Below, one piece after another: positions 3,112-8,263 of a stretch of DNA of 64,000 nt (position 1 is its first letter; each line of letters opens with the position of its first letter). A program made the position numbers and the translations under genes. Location: positions 372,001-436,000 of the forward strand of contig NZ_JQMP01000001.1 in NCBI RefSeq assembly GCF_000744775.1, given 5' to 3'. The notes under the pieces were generated by a model, which was not told the DNA's origin, did no database searches, and saw only the letters and a program-made list of their open reading frames with translations. This stretch comes from Thermorudis peleae. Lineage in GTDB: Bacteria; Chloroflexota; Chloroflexia; Thermomicrobiales; Thermomicrobiaceae.

Positions 3112-3786
3112 TTACGGCACCTGGACGCGAATCAGGTTGGTGACCTTCGTCACACCTGGAGCGCGCCAGGCCGCCTCTTCGGCTTCCTTACGCTCAGCCC
3201 ATGAGCGCACTGTACCGGTCAGCACGACGTGGCCGCCCTCTTCGACCCGCACCTGGATGCTTTTGGCATCCAGCTCAGCATGGCGAACAAAGGCTTGCTC
3301 AATCTGGCGCTTGATCGTGTCTGGAGCGACCGTCGGCTGCTTGACCGTGATCAGGTTGATAACCGACTTGACACCCGACACCCGGCGAGCCGACTCCTCG
3401 GCCTCACGCCGCTGGTAGTGCCAGTCGACTTCGCCTTCCAGTGTCACACGGCCTTCTTCGACGCGAACCTTAATCTTGTCGGCTGGTACCGACGGGTTCT
3501 CCTCCAGCGCCGTCACCACCGCCCGCGCGATATCCTCATCTGTGCGAATACCCAACCCGCGCGGCACGACTTCGATATGGTTGACGACGGCACGGACACC
3601 TTCAACTCGCAGCGCGGCGCGCTCCGCTGCCCACTTCTTGAGGAAGCTGTCAACGGTACCGGTTAATGTCACTACTCCCTGGTCGACGGCGACCCCAACA
3701 TCGGTCACCTCGACCTCTGGATCCCACTCGAGTTCCTCCATGACCGCCTTCTGAATTGCTTCATCGTCAAGTACTCGTGCAGCCAT
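3112..3786 (-). CDS. Triple BON-domain protein
   Basis: 224 residues made of three BON modules (roughly 5-75, 80-147 and 153-224), each with the pattern 'V.V..G.VTLTG.V......AE.AA..V.GV..V.N.I'. BON domains occur in OsmY-type stress proteins and are thought to bind membranes or other hydrophobic surfaces. Unlike OsmY there is no signal peptide, so this copy should stay in the cytoplasm. GGGGAGGTGGG precedes the ATG. It follows the hsp20 gene by 57 bases and shares its promoter and terminator, so a role in heat or envelope stress is likely. Confidence 0.85.
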   Translation of the reverse strand: MAARVLDDEAIQKAVMEELEWDPEVEVTDVGVAVDQGVVTLTGTVDSFLKKWAAERAALRVEGVRAVVNHIEVVPRGLGIRTDEDIARAVVTALEENPSVPADKIKVRVEEGRVTLEGEVDWHYQRREAEESARRVSGVKSVINLITVKQPTVAPDTIKRQIEQAFVRHAELDAKSIQVRVEEGGHVVLTGTVRSWAERKEAEEAAWRAPGVTKVTNLIRVQVP

Positions 3787-3843: not shown

Positions 3844-4293
3844 TTAGTTTGCGCGAGACTGGATGGTAATCCGCTTGACACGCGCCGTCTCGGCCTTCGG
3901 GAAGACCAGTGTGACAATCCCATCAGCGACCGTCGCCTCTGCCTTGTCAGCATCGACCGGCCGTGGCAGGGTAATGGTCTCTGCGAACTGGCCCGCGCCG
4001 ATCTCCCGGCGATACCATGTCGCCTTCTTGGCTTCGTCTTCGCTGAGGCTGTACCCAAACCGACCGCGGATGGTCACTGTGCCTTGTTCGATCGTCACCT
4101 CAAGATCTTCTGGCTTAGCGCCGGGCGCTGCCAGCTTGATAACAACAGCGTCCTCGGTCTCGTAGACGTCAGTTGCTGGCCTGGTCGCCAGGCGCACCGC
4201 TGAGCGCGGCCGGGCCGTCAGTGCCTCAGCCAACCGGTTCATCTCGTCAACCATCCGGTCTAGCTCGGCAAGCGGATTCCAACGCTCTAGCAT
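3844..4293 (-). CDS. Hsp20/alpha-crystallin small heat shock protein
   Basis: 149 residues, the usual bacterial length. Residues 40-140 form the alpha-crystallin domain: 'ATDVYETEDAVVIKLAAPGAKPEDLEV' at the start and the closing 'GIVTLVFPKAE' (family A-x-x-x-G-V-L-x-x-x-x-P-K). An ATP-independent holdase that keeps unfolding proteins soluble. The N-terminus 'MLERWNPLAELDRMVDEMNRL' is typical. First gene of a two-gene operon with the BON protein; see the promoter and palindrome upstream for its control. Confidence 0.93.
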   Translation of the reverse strand: MLERWNPLAELDRMVDEMNRLAEALTARPRSAVRLATRPATDVYETEDAVVIKLAAPGAKPEDLEVTIEQGTVTIRGRFGYSLSEDEAKKATWYRREIGAGQFAETITLPRPVDADKAEATVADGIVTLVFPKAETARVKRITIQSRAN

Positions 4294-4491: not shown

Positions 4492-5730
4492 TCAATGATG
4501 GGAAGAGCGACTCCCGAGCAGGGAGGCAAGACCCGAAGCAGCCGTGAGCAGGCCAACGACGGCAATCCCCGTCCGCGCCCCGAATGTATCGGCTACGATG
4601 CCCGTCAAGAGCACACCGATCGGGTAGCCAGCGTCCCGCCAGAGCCGGTAGATGCCAACCGCGGAAGCACGCCAGAGCGGGTGGGCGACGTCAGAGACCG
4701 CTGCCAGCAGGGTTGGATAAACCATCGCTGTACCGATGCCAAGCAGGACCATCGCGATGGCCCAACCGGCAACAGTATGGGTGAGCAGGATGAGACCAAT
4801 GCCGAGTGCCTGCACAGCCATCCCTCCGGCAATCAAGCCAACCCGGCCAACGTGGTCGGACAGTGCGCCTGTGAACAGCTGCCCGATGCCCCACACAGCA
4901 GGGTAAAGGGCGGCGAGTCCACCGATCGTCTCCAGCCCAAGTCCGCGGGCTGCGAAGTAGAGTGGCAGTAACCCCCATGCCATGCCGTCATTCAGGTTAT
5001 TCACGAGGCCAGCCTGACAGAAGGCGAAGAACGCTGGTTGCCGTACGCTCATGACCAGGAGCTGCCCAACGCTCGCTACAGCACTATCGGGGTGGGACAG
5101 CGACATGTCGCTTGCCTCGCGCGCTGCGTAGCGCTGCGTCTCGTGCACGAAGCCAACCGAGAGCACCAGCCCTGCAAGGGCACAGCCAAGCGCGAGGGCG
5201 AACGGCCACGGACGGATCGCGGTGGCTGCAGCGATCGCACTGGCACCGAAGGCTGCGAGCGCGACAGCTCCGTAGCCAGCCGCTTCATTGAGTCCCATAG
5301 CCAGCCCACGCCAGCGCGGACCGACAAGGTCGATCTTCATCGTCACCGTCATCGACCATGCGAGCCCCTGGTTGAGTCCGAGTAGCACGTTGGCGGCAAC
5401 GACCCATCCCCACGTCGGCGCGGCGATAATGAGCAGTGGCACCGGCAGTCCGGCAAGCCAACCAGCGACGAGCACCGGCTTGCGCCCGATTCGGTCACTC
5501 AGGCGGCCAGCAAAGAGGTTGGTGAGCGCTTTGACTGCACCAAAACTTGCAATGAAGGATAACGCTGCGGCCCGCGAGGCAATGCCGAAATCGTGCTCAG
5601 CCAGGAGTGGCAGGATAGCGCGCTCGACGCCGACCATGCTGCCGACAAAGGCATTGACCACGACCAGCAAGGTAAACTGAGCCCAATTTGCCCGGAGCCC
5701 GAGGACCACCGTCTCCTTCGTCTGCGCCAT
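4492..5730 (-). CDS. MFS transporter in sulfur-stress module
   Basis: 412 residues with about 12 hydrophobic segments. The MFS signature after helix 2 is clear: 'NLFAGRLSDRIGRKPVL', with its counterpart in the second half, 'QLFTGALSDHVGRVGLI'. Inner-membrane secondary transporter; the substrate cannot be read from sequence. It starts 15 bases after the stop of the rhodanese/MBL gene and belongs to the same operon as the ArsR-rhodanese regulator, which suggests export of a sulfur compound or a toxic anion. That is inference. Confidence 0.85.
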   Translation of the reverse strand: MAQTKETVVLGLRANWAQFTLLVVVNAFVGSMVGVERAILPLLAEHDFGIASRAAALSFIASFGAVKALTNLFAGRLSDRIGRKPVLVAGWLAGLPVPLLIIAAPTWGWVVAANVLLGLNQGLAWSMTVTMKIDLVGPRWRGLAMGLNEAAGYGAVALAAFGASAIAAATAIRPWPFALALGCALAGLVLSVGFVHETQRYAAREASDMSLSHPDSAVASVGQLLVMSVRQPAFFAFCQAGLVNNLNDGMAWGLLPLYFAARGLGLETIGGLAALYPAVWGIGQLFTGALSDHVGRVGLIAGGMAVQALGIGLILLTHTVAGWAIAMVLLGIGTAMVYPTLLAAVSDVAHPLWRASAVGIYRLWRDAGYPIGVLLTGIVADTFGARTGIAVVGLLTAASGLASLLGSRSSHH

Positions 5731-5745
5731 CCTGCGCCTCCTCGC

Positions 5746-6846
5746 CTAGCGCACGGCACAGCGGTTTGCGCCAGCTTCAAGCGTTGCCAGTTGCTCGGGA
5801 TCGTCGATCGCGGCGCCAGCCAAGTTGAGCGCGACGATCTCAGCGAAATGGGCTGGCGGTTCGGGTTGATGAGCAAGCAGGTGGTCAACAAGAGCTGATG
5901 GCTCGACCTGGAGCAGTGGGAGGTGCTCTCGGAGTGTCCCGAGGCTCGCGCAAAGCGGTTGGCCATCAAAGCGAGGTGGCTGCGCTGTATGCCCAGGAAA
6001 GACGAGAGTTTCCGCTGGGAGCGCCTGCAACCGCTGGAGCGAGCGCACCAGCGCCTGTGCACGGTGGAGCGCTTCGTCGCTGTGCGCCTCAAGGTCGACA
6101 CGGCCAATACCTTCAAGAAAGAGCGTATCGCCGGTAAACACAGCGCCAGCCGGATGCCAAAAGGAAATGCTTTCCCAGGTATGCCCTGGGGTAGCAAGGA
6201 CTCTTAGTGTTGTCGGCCCAATGGTTATGGTCGCGCCGTCGTCAAGTGGGATGACAGGGAAGTGTGCCCGCGTTGACACACCGAGGTAGCGGGGAACGCC
6301 AAATCGAGTGACAAGCTGTGGCGCACGCGAGAGGTGATCTGCGTGCAGGTGGGTCTCTGCAACGCCGATGATCTGGGCACCCTCAGCAGCAGCAAGCTGA
6401 GCGAACACCGCGGCATCGATCGCTGGATCGATAATCAAAGCCTTTCCGCCAGCCACAAGGAGGTACGAGAGACATCCCTTGCCAACCCGGCGCACTTGAT
6501 AGAGCACCGTACCGTCGGCAAGCACTGTTCGTGCCACGTTCCAGGCAAAGCTCCACGCTCGCATGCCTCCTTCAAGGGACTCTGCTTGGTAGCCCCGTGC
6601 GCGAAGCAACGCTGCCACGTGTTGGCTCGTCTTGCCAGCACCACAGACGACTACGATCAATTGGTCAGTGGGTAGAGCGACGGCATCAAGTGCCTGCTCA
6701 TTGCCCTGGTTGACTGCTTCGTACAGCCCGGGGAAAAAGAGGCTATTGGGAATTGCCCAGTCCTGTCGCTCCGGTTCCGGGCGGACGTCGAGGATGGTTA
6801 TCGGGTGACCTTGTTCAAGGAGAGACCGCAATGTCTCGACACGCAT
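5746..6846 (-). CDS. Rhodanese-metallo-beta-lactamase fusion (persulfide dioxygenase-like)
   Basis: 366 residues. Residues 1-100 are a rhodanese domain ending in the active loop 'VVVCGAGKTSQHVAALL' with its cysteine near 68. Residues 110-300 are a metallo-beta-lactamase fold with metal ligands in THLHADHLS, TPGHTWES, FTGDTLF and FPGHTA, the set used by ETHE1/persulfide dioxygenases. Expected to oxidise protein- or thiol-bound persulfide to sulfite or transfer its sulfur. In CstB-type fusions the order is the reverse, lactamase first. Lies between the ArsR-rhodanese regulator (67 bases upstream) and the MFS gene. ETHE1-like activity rests on ligands and context only. Confidence 0.85.
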   Translation of the reverse strand: MRVETLRSLLEQGHPITILDVRPEPERQDWAIPNSLFFPGLYEAVNQGNEQALDAVALPTDQLIVVVCGAGKTSQHVAALLRARGYQAESLEGGMRAWSFAWNVARTVLADGTVLYQVRRVGKGCLSYLLVAGGKALIIDPAIDAAVFAQLAAAEGAQIIGVAETHLHADHLSRAPQLVTRFGVPRYLGVSTRAHFPVIPLDDGATITIGPTTLRVLATPGHTWESISFWHPAGAVFTGDTLFLEGIGRVDLEAHSDEALHRAQALVRSLQRLQALPAETLVFPGHTAQPPRFDGQPLCASLGTLREHLPLLQVEPSALVDHLLAHQPEPPAHFAEIVALNLAGAAIDDPEQLATLEAGANRCAVR

Positions 6847-6913
6847 ACGCCTAATCCTTTCGCAACGATCAGCCGGAATCTCGGCTGCTCCTGGAGAAGT
6901 GCGCCCAAGCGGG

Positions 6914-7597
6914 TTACGGCCTCGGTGATTCCATCACCGCGACCTCAACCGGCCAACCACGGGCTCGCCAGTCAGCCGGGCTGTCATCAATACGCCATGC
7001 GGTGAAGCCGTGCTGACGGAGTATTGCGACAGCCTCGTCAGCAAACGTGCAGAATCGTCCGCGGCAATAGACGACGATTGGGCGGTCACGGGGGAGTTCA
7101 GCAAGATGGCTAGCGAGATGCGCAAGCGGCAGGGAGCGTGCGCCCGGCAGGTGTCCCGCAGCAAACTCGTTTGCTGGCCGCACGTCGAGCAGCACGATCT
7201 GGCCAGCACGGACGGCGTCGGAAAGAGTATCGGTGGGAAACGGCGCACGCTCTCGCTGGCCAACATGCTGGGTGAGCACGGCATCGACTTCTGCAAGGTG
7301 GTTTTCACCGACTTCACGCAACGTCAGGAGGAGTCGGGCAATGTCATCGCCAGCGAGTCGATAGAAGACACGGGTACCGGCACGCCGACTGATGACAATC
7401 CTGGCACGCCGCAGGGCTTGCAAGTGCTGGGAAACGTTGGCAACGGGCAGGGCAAGTTCGGCAGCGAGATCCTCGACACTCCGCTCGGCTTGTGCGAGCA
7501 GATCGAGCAGTTCGATCCGGAGCGGGTGGGCGAGTGCCTGGCCGATGCGTGCAAGTTCGCTATAGAGCGCAACCTTGAAAGCACGGTGAGTAACCAC
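6914..7597 (-). CDS. ArsR-family regulator fused to a rhodanese domain
   Basis: 227 residues from a GTG start with AAAGGA upstream. Residues 10-95 are an ArsR winged helix ('ALAHPLRIELLDLL...VEDLAAELALPVANVSQHLQALRRARIV'). The ELCVCDL metal site of ArsR/SmtB is absent: no cysteine occurs in that helix. Residues 125-222 are a rhodanese domain with the loop CRGRFC. The arrangement suggests that the regulator senses reactive sulfur through the rhodanese cysteines rather than a metal. It heads the operon with the rhodanese/lactamase and MFS genes and probably controls it. Confidence 0.88.
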   Translation of the reverse strand: MVTHRAFKVALYSELARIGQALAHPLRIELLDLLAQAERSVEDLAAELALPVANVSQHLQALRRARIVISRRAGTRVFYRLAGDDIARLLLTLREVGENHLAEVDAVLTQHVGQRERAPFPTDTLSDAVRAGQIVLLDVRPANEFAAGHLPGARSLPLAHLASHLAELPRDRPIVVYCRGRFCTFADEAVAILRQHGFTAWRIDDSPADWRARGWPVEVAVMESPRP

Positions 7598-7655
7598 AGG
7601 GACTTATCCTTTCAGCGATAGCGGCCTATCCCGCCAGGCAAGATCTTCAATTGCT

Positions 7656-7670
7656 TTGTTGAACAATATA
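7656..7670 (-). promoter_or_regulatory. Possible promoter/operator of the ArsR-rhodanese operon
   Basis: An 11-base palindrome (TTGTT, one base, AACAA at 7656-7666) directly abuts TATATT (7670-7665 on the minus strand), which could be the -10 box, 70 bases before the GTG start. A -35 match upstream is poor (TTGCTC). The position suits autorepression by the ArsR-type regulator. Confidence 0.35.
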
Positions 7671-7675
7671 GCACG

Positions 7676-7697
7676 AAAAAAGGCGGAGCAAGCGCCC
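7676..7697 (-). terminator. Rho-independent terminator upstream of the ArsR operon
   Basis: On the minus strand GGCG-CTTGCTC-CGCC is followed by six T. The stem is short (4-5 bp) but the T run is clean. It would end transcription coming from the broken response-regulator region before the ArsR promoter. Confidence 0.5.
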
Positions 7698-8263
7698 CGT
7701 TCTCGTGTGAGTCCGGTGGTTCACCGCTGGGTTACTCAGCAAGATAGACCGTTGGAGCAGCGCTCACATCGTCGCCACGTCAAAATACCGTGGCACACCT
7801 GACGCCGGCCGTATTGGATCCAGAGCGGCGTCATGCAGGGATGCGACTGGGGTAGGCCAACCGGCAACCGGGCAGCACCGATCGGCACGCAGTGGCACCG
7901 GATACCGCATAGCCTTGCTTGCGCAAGGACTGCTGTACCATCACCGCAAGTCATGCCTCATCTTCGATAAGCAGAATGCGCATCTGGCGTGTTCCGTGAG
8001 ATCAAACCACACCAGCAGCCAAAAGGTTGAGCGATTCACCAAGAGAGGCAGAGCGAGATTTACCTCTCTTGCTCAGGACGTCCTCGTCTGACTGCGCTGG
8101 TATTGCCCCCTTCTGGTGGCCACCAGCATCCTGTCCCTCAACGCCAAGAACCTTGCCTGAGCCTGTATTGGCCTTCATGGCGTGGCGAGTCCTGAACGCA
8201 TCAGGCGAACTCGTCGCCCTCAGCTGGAGTGCCGCTTGAGAGTCAACGCAGATGGAATCAGGG
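7698..8263. other. Degraded region between ArsR operon and DUF1801 gene
   Basis: About 570 bases without an intact gene. It holds the response-regulator remnant at 7903-7983. Other open frames here (for example 8002-8337 minus, overlapping the DUF1801 gene end) have no recognisable domain or convincing ribosome site. The stretch reads like decayed coding sequence. Confidence 0.45.
7903..7983 (-). pseudogene. Response-regulator receiver remnant
   Basis: On the minus strand from the ATG at 7983 the translation is MRILLIEDEA, then a TGA stop, then LAVMVQQSLRKQGYAV in the same frame. This is the first beta-alpha-beta unit of an OmpR-type receiver domain (acidic pair E8-D9 in the IEDEA motif). 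No phosphate-acceptor segment or DNA-binding domain can be found downstream in any frame, so the gene is both truncated and interrupted. Confidence 0.6.

Follow-up and report, generated by a model that had tools for sequence, protein, structure and literature searches.

Which signal is answered by a regulator whose ArsR DNA-binding domain is fused to a rhodanese domain, and what do the genes behind it do? The question is raised by a locus in a stretch of 64,000 nucleotides of Thermorudis peleae (contig NZ_JQMP01000001.1, positions 372,001 to 436,000, forward strand), called here the window; the host genome comprises 2.93 Mb in 4 contigs. Three genes form one minus-strand unit in the window and encode an ArsR-rhodanese regulator, a rhodanese/metallo-beta-lactamase (MBL) enzyme and a major facilitator superfamily (MFS) transporter. 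Coordinates and reading frames were confirmed by translation, the gaps are 67 nt from regulator to enzyme and 15 nt from enzyme to transporter, and every Pfam domain of the three proteins scored over cut-off, bearing out the operon outlined in a preliminary description of this DNA. Observed directly were the order of the genes and the domains that they encode, together with residues and an operator that are conserved, a sulfur neighbourhood and a dioxygenase-type fold. Our preferred reading, held with moderate confidence, is that the regulator is an autoregulated repressor sensing sulfane sulfur by the CX4C loop of its rhodanese domain, and that it controls persulfide oxidation and anion export. 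The component parts are each of a known kind, and the regulator group is large and little studied; new are an operator shared across the family, an MFS partner that stays constant, an N-x-C tail on the enzyme, and the CX4C loop as the one place where a thiol sensor could lie.

The regulator matched the Pfam families ArsR HTH_5 (E 5.6e-12) and Rhodanese (E 1.5e-14), passed the cut-off of the NCBIfam model NF033788 (HTH_metalloreg), and was modelled as a monomer by AlphaFold with a pLDDT of 91.9. Its only cysteines are C178 and C183, which lie within the CRGRFC of the rhodanese active-site loop; when the whole protein was checked, no cysteine was found in the ArsR part, nor any before residue 178. 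The preliminary description had reported an ArsR domain without the usual metal-site cysteines next to a CRGRFC rhodanese loop, and the cysteine positions and Pfam matches agree with it. It had also placed sensing in the fused rhodanese. As judged from the protein sequence, any thiol sensing by the regulator must indeed run through this loop, there being no other cysteine.

A pattern search of one genome per species (84,980 species) yielded at least 590 matches listed, at least 583 of which encode relatives of the regulator, not all of them checked as full length; the best 80 were kept as named loci. By sequence, the family is large and crosses phyla. The window loop reads YCRGRFC and thus has the YCRGxxC pattern of the ArsR-rhodanese family. 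Both loop cysteines were present in 11/11 aligned regulators from the genome set described below, in 30/30 Chloroflexota loci examined (from 69 profile matches in 62 of 400 Chloroflexota genomes) and in three plasmid members found by tblastn (YCRGPYC, YCRGAYC and YCRGEYC). The second cysteine of CX4C was missing from the enzyme's own rhodanese loop in 41 alignment rows and from five other catalytic-cysteine rhodanese domains among 8 loci read in the host genome, indicating that the second loop cysteine goes with the regulator. Among the 69 named members that were aligned, a cysteine also occurs in the ArsR part at regulator position 35 in 18 and at position 87 in 15, so part of the family may retain a second thiol site.

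Regions upstream of the regulator genes, taken from 200 nt before the start to 30 nt after it (88 regions, 86 once two near-duplicates were removed), have the dyad TATTCAA-N8-TTGAATA in common. TTCAA-N8-TTGAA was found in 29/88 regions, while across 20 mononucleotide shuffles no dyad of whatever sequence was found in more than 3. ATTC-N12-GAAT was exact in 44/86 and present with at most one mismatch in 69/86; dinucleotide shuffles predicted 0.53 exact and approximately 9 within one mismatch, and natural control sequence 700-930 nt upstream (75 loci) gave 0/75 and 1/75, respectively. Most family sites fall some 20-45 nt ahead of the start, a position expected of a repressor site. The half-sites stand 12 nt apart in this family versus 8 in SqrR, whose site is ATTC-N8-GAAT (PMC9774250, in part); the SqrR type was tried as operator and rejected, with 0/86 exact. 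In the window the candidate operator likely lies at 7646-7663, within the 7600-7700 fragment proposed in the preliminary description, and reads TTCAACAAAGCAATTGAA on the minus strand (7663-7646). In 64 kb, chance alone should produce about one site that matches TTCAA-N8-TTGAA with no more than a single mismatch, so the weight of the window site comes from its place and family conservation, not from its sequence alone. The host genome holds five exact sites, of which only the window site lies outside long open reading frames (ORFs); the four within long ORFs were rejected as marking other regulon members, and the reversed pattern gave 2 sites. A TATATT hexamer immediately 5′ of the dyad was spotted by eye only. 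DNA folding of the regulator's upstream region was unremarkable (z -0.59), and an Rfam scan of three relative loci gave nothing over threshold, sub-threshold matches only.

In the enzyme, a Pfam Rhodanese domain (residues 4-99, E 4.2e-12) is followed by Lactamase_B (residues 124-286, E 1.6e-21). The structure model (pLDDT 88.9) matched CstB 3r2u (Z 30.2), 3tp9 (Z 30.0), human ETHE1 (Z 28.7) and BpPRF (Z 28.6); matches of persulfide-dioxygenase type spanned Z 25.7-30.2 and the best glyoxalase II reached Z 21.4. Model and sequence thus place the MBL domain with the persulfide dioxygenases, which would form sulfite from persulfide and O2; profile and structure matches, with CstB and ETHE1 above glyoxalase II, agree with the persulfide-dioxygenase-like enzyme described earlier. 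The rhodanese-first order, described as opposite to CstB, was likewise correct but is not diagnostic: as a special trait it was rejected because it is widespread, full-length relatives occurring in many Chloroflexota and also on haloarchaeal and Bacteroidota plasmids. H166, H168, H222, D240, R249, D251, H286, N361 and C363 were kept in all 40 full-length rows of an alignment in which some genomes stand twice (L151/L071, L152/L061) and from which three partial rows had been dropped; D170 is a cysteine in the G005 rows. H166, H222 and D240 are the likely His, His and Asp iron ligands of the ETHE1/CstB class, and R249-x-D251 corresponds to its R-x-D motif. The N-x-C tail was retained down to 30% identity, in bacteria and one archaeal row. 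Cysteines near the C-terminus, C224 of AcPDO and C247 of hETHE1, are essential in Type I dioxygenases, as are R139, D141 and H171 of the Acidithiobacillus enzyme (PMC6060420, in part), and R249-x-D251 and H286 of the window enzyme resemble the latter three by motif order, not by superposition.

Two relatives showed irregular enzyme frames. The G002 enzyme (L054, L151, L071) has an in-frame TGA precisely where 30/40 rows have Cys125; its sister G011 has a Cys codon at that position, and SelB of G002 scored over cut-off. The TGA possibly encodes selenocysteine, or is a mutation or sequencing error. The G009 enzyme (L062) is interrupted halfway through the MBL domain and continues in a second, overlapping frame, owing to a frameshift or to an error in assembly; regulator and MFS gene are intact.

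Sixty-one genomes, the window's own included, were searched. Full-length regulators, with an ArsR winged helix followed by one rhodanese in a chain of about 220 residues, were found in 11/61. An MFS orthologue stood close downstream in all 10 genomes with enough contig (G014, where the contig ends, was excluded), and the rhodanese-first enzyme lay between the two in six (window, G002, G005, G009, G011 and G017). Each of the 14 close MFS orthologues (E up to 1.5e-34) adjoins the regulator, the enzyme or both; since 11/61 genomes hold the regulator and every one of these orthologues adjoins a partner, the association exceeds chance. What stays constant is the pair of regulator and transporter; the enzyme varies, being absent or replaced in some relatives, and on this point the preliminary description needs correction. 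Four relatives from another family (G037, G039, G044 and G048) have the enzyme and MFS genes paired with no ArsR-rhodanese gene in view; the contigs of G039 and G044 begin or end at the enzyme gene. The pair also stands together in Haliscomenobacter and the archaeon Haladaptatus, with MFS identities to the window protein of 50% and 37%. A LysR-type gene was seen upstream of the pair, directly adjacent to the enzyme gene in G048 and at a distance of about 3 kb in G037; it is divergent and adjacent in L064 (720-1649) and about 3 kb away in L065 (5502-6395). The window transporter matched Pfam MFS_1 (E 2.1e-37), and Pfam gave no TauE (PF01925) match in it. Across 37 members of the transporter family, 53 positions do not vary; they include K67, R83, K132, R141, R173, R354, R362 and R365, lysines and arginines that would suit an anion.

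In the 80 named loci, genes up to 3.5 kb ahead of the regulator and up to 4.5 kb beyond it were classified with reference proteins that, the window's own excepted, were chosen from the same loci; counts are lower bounds because many loci are cut by contig ends. MFS genes of the window type were found in 32 loci, MBL genes in 26 (7 rhodanese-first), DsrE in 29, and SQR/flavocytochrome-like and cysteine desulfurase genes in 12 each. At least one of the five sulfur classes tested stood near the regulator in 49/80 loci, in line with the sulfur role proposed earlier, and 7/80 were without any class tested. An MBL gene without an MFS gene was seen in just 1 of the 26 loci, which ends 288 nt downstream. 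Pfam and NCBIfam searches of 83 neighbour proteins pointed the same way, with SQR type III (8), cysteine desulfurase (2), methanethiol methyltransferase (2) and SelD (2). No arsenic family appeared among the first 25 of 47 Pfam and first 25 of 76 NCBIfam families, and there was only one chromate transporter and one MerA match. A fatty-acid-hydroxylase-like gene, mostly divergent, was noted near the regulator in 19/80 loci (e.g. L086, 5005-5874).

The host genome contains a second sulfur cluster (C1:207-212 kb), all on one strand, with SQR-like, ArsR without rhodanese, MBL, rhodanese and TauE genes; its MBL gene has two rhodanese stretches after the MBL part. The window operon repeats the roles of this cluster with other parts, which supports a clearance function, and the presence of two sets suggests a different signal or product for each. 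The SQR-like gene of the cluster (L222, C1:210949-212073, outside the window) is broken by one TGA at HTT-stop-LVTYGAG. It matched the NCBI selenoprotein-type SQR model with E 4.4e-74, under its cut-off, and SelB of the host genome scored over cut-off; L222 possibly encodes a selenoprotein.

Several known systems resemble parts of the operon. The N-terminal domain of the regulator is 45% identical to fragment 1-100 of Mb0332 of Mycobacterium bovis (2kko/3gw2). We take Mb0332 to be of the Rv0324 type and, at full length, presumably to carry a C-terminal rhodanese. Rv0324, likely the Mb0332 orthologue, has been studied in hypoxia modules, and the accessible part of that source gives no sulfur ligand for it (PMC4916473). 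BigR, SqrR and YgaV share with the regulator the ArsR fold, sulfur-gene targets and the half-sites ATTC and GAAT (PMC9774250, in part). Unlike the regulator, they sense with cysteines of the ArsR fold; the regulator has a fused rhodanese instead, and because the two sensor cysteines that BigR and SqrR have in that fold are absent it is not a BigR-type sensor. By resemblance, the operon may nevertheless work like a BigR or CstR operon. Staphylococcus aureus CstB and BpPRF also combine an MBL persulfide-dioxygenase fold with rhodanese, but at the opposite end, and the window enzyme has the additional C-terminal N-x-C tail. The model of Blh, the BigR-controlled sulfur transferase/dioxygenase (NF040641), matched the MBL part of the enzyme at 52.1 bits against a cut-off of 625. 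In Blh a sulfurtransferase-type domain precedes the dioxygenase, as in the window enzyme. TauE/SafE sulfite exporters likewise adjoin persulfide dioxygenases (PMC7315123, in part), whereas the window transporter belongs to another family, MFS. An ArsR superfamily sequence network excluded proteins of more than 150 residues (PMC10509353, in part), so the ArsR-rhodanese fusion class is missing from its sensor-type map. In a search of the open-access literature, which could miss a paper, no publication turned up that describes a sulfur sensor of ArsR-rhodanese type, the operator of such a sensor or the MFS family.

We infer the ligand, the direction of regulation, the chemistry of the loop and the substrate and direction of the transporter as follows, reading the operon as an autoregulated defence against reactive sulfur. 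An ArsR-rhodanese dimer bound to the dyad at 7646-7663 would block transcription of the regulator, enzyme and transporter genes. At raised levels of persulfide or polysulfide, C178 of the rhodanese loop would take up sulfane sulfur and might then react with C183 to form a disulfide or polysulfide bridge; two cysteines are likewise bridged in the ArsR persulfide sensors already known (PMC10509353, PMC12423496, both in part). The bridge would change how the loop is coupled to the DNA-binding part, and the regulator would leave the DNA. At its iron site the enzyme would oxidise low-molecular-weight persulfide to sulfite, with sulfane sulfur supplied or drawn off by its rhodanese domain. The sulfur anion formed, sulfite or thiosulfate, would leave the cell through the MFS protein. 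It is possible, and put forward only tentatively, that ArsR-rhodanese proteins form a large, separate class of sulfane-sulfur sensors, in which an enzyme-like rhodanese loop of the CRGPYC type captures the sulfur in place of the ArsR fold and closes into a Cys-Sn-Cys bridge. Such a class would have ATTC-N12-GAAT as its own operator and, as core target, a hitherto unrecognised MFS family of sulfite/thiosulfate exporters, partnered by a dioxygenase whose N-x-C tail shuttles persulfide between rhodanese and iron sites.

A number of observations weigh against the preferred reading. Both loop cysteines occur in 69/69 aligned named members, but this figure is inflated because the fetch pattern itself includes the loop. 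Two or more cysteines are present in the ArsR part of 16/69 relatives, so a second sensing mode may exist in the family. The ArsR-fold cysteines of known persulfide sensors being absent, the signal would need an inter-domain path. The window operator has 2/12 mismatches to the full motif and is weaker than those of the family, and two close relatives, L061 and L062, have a weak motif or none. In 31/80 loci none of the five sulfur classes is represented near the regulator; the enzyme is replaced by another MBL protein in G010, and nothing stands between regulator and MFS gene in G003, G006 and G015. A PDB sequence search returned no relative of the MFS protein with a solved structure at E 0.001.

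The same loop might sense general thiol oxidation (peroxide or disulfide stress), with the operon answering oxidative damage: two cysteines five apart in an active site suit a disulfide, and a C-x4-C disulfide is found in a similar loop of low-molecular-weight tyrosine phosphatase. We consider this unlikely since the genes around the regulator are of the sulfane-sulfur kind (DsrE, SQR-like, MBL dioxygenase, cysteine desulfurase) and the domain fused to the regulator has a sulfurtransferase fold, although an ArsR peroxide sensor, RexT, exists (PMC10509353, in part). A metal or arsenic regulator with an ancillary rhodanese would account for the score of the HTH part over the NF033788 metalloregulator cut-off and for the database labels of relatives as metalloregulators; it is very improbable given an ArsR part without cysteine and the neighbour families listed above. 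An arsenic or metal role was accordingly rejected on the missing metal-ligand cysteines (CxC in helix 3 and others; Cys sites only) and on the neighbours (first 25 families of each list).

The downstream genes also permit other functions. The direction of MFS transport is not readable from sequence, and some relatives adjoin cysteine desulfurase or sulfate transporter genes, so the transporter might import a sulfur compound (thiosulfate, sulfite or sulfonate) for use by the enzyme in a nutritional operon. Such a function is unlikely: the pairing of MFS and dioxygenase and the parallel TauE-bearing cluster fit clearance, and published sulfide operons couple a dioxygenase with a putative sulfite exporter (PMC7315123, in part). 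That the enzyme is a glyoxalase-II-like thioester hydrolase instead of a dioxygenase is improbable; its best NCBIfam line was GloB, yet at 94.7 bits, well below the cut-off of 200.8, while CstB, ETHE1 and BpPRF were far ahead in profile and structure matches and the R-x-D motif is invariant in the enzyme rows. Glyoxalase II identity was rejected on fold and profile matches.

Beyond the transporter gene, genes for an HSP20 protein (3844-4293) and a triple-BON-domain protein (3112-3786) come next on the same strand (Pfam). Scanning for the sigma-70 consensus revealed no promoter at the regulator gene; the sole match was a promoter-like TTGACA-N18-TATCCT before the HSP20 gene (4379-4350). Features of the operon are listed in the table.

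Table. Positions of the operon's genes, motifs and candidate operator in the window
Feature	Position	Strand	Basis or remark
ArsR-rhodanese regulator, 227 aa, GTG start	6914..7597	-	Pfam HTH_5 + Rhodanese; NF033788; AlphaFold model
Codons of loop C178-R-G-R-F-C183	7049..7066	-	translation, cysteine positions, conservation
Likely operator dyad TTCAA-N8-TTGAA	7646..7663	.	49-66 nt before regulator GTG; family-shared dyad
Rhodanese-first metallo-beta-lactamase enzyme, 366 aa, persulfide-dioxygenase-like	5746..6846	-	Pfam; model; CstB structure match
Rhodanese catalytic Cys68 codon of enzyme	6643..6645	-	Cys in 40/41 rows
HxHxDH metal motif of enzyme, residues 166-171	6334..6351	-	other likely site residues H222, D240, R249-x-D251, H286
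C-terminal N361-R-C363 tail of enzyme	5758..5766	-	N + C in 40/40 full-length rhodanese-first rows
MFS transporter, 412 aa	4492..5730	-	Pfam MFS_1; family invariant positions

With two cysteines, one likely operator and two targets, the window offers a compact test case for the rhodanese loop as a direct transcription sensor. If sulfane-sulfur sensing by this loop is true, the operator motif and the MFS family would become markers of reactive-sulfur control in hundreds of genomes.

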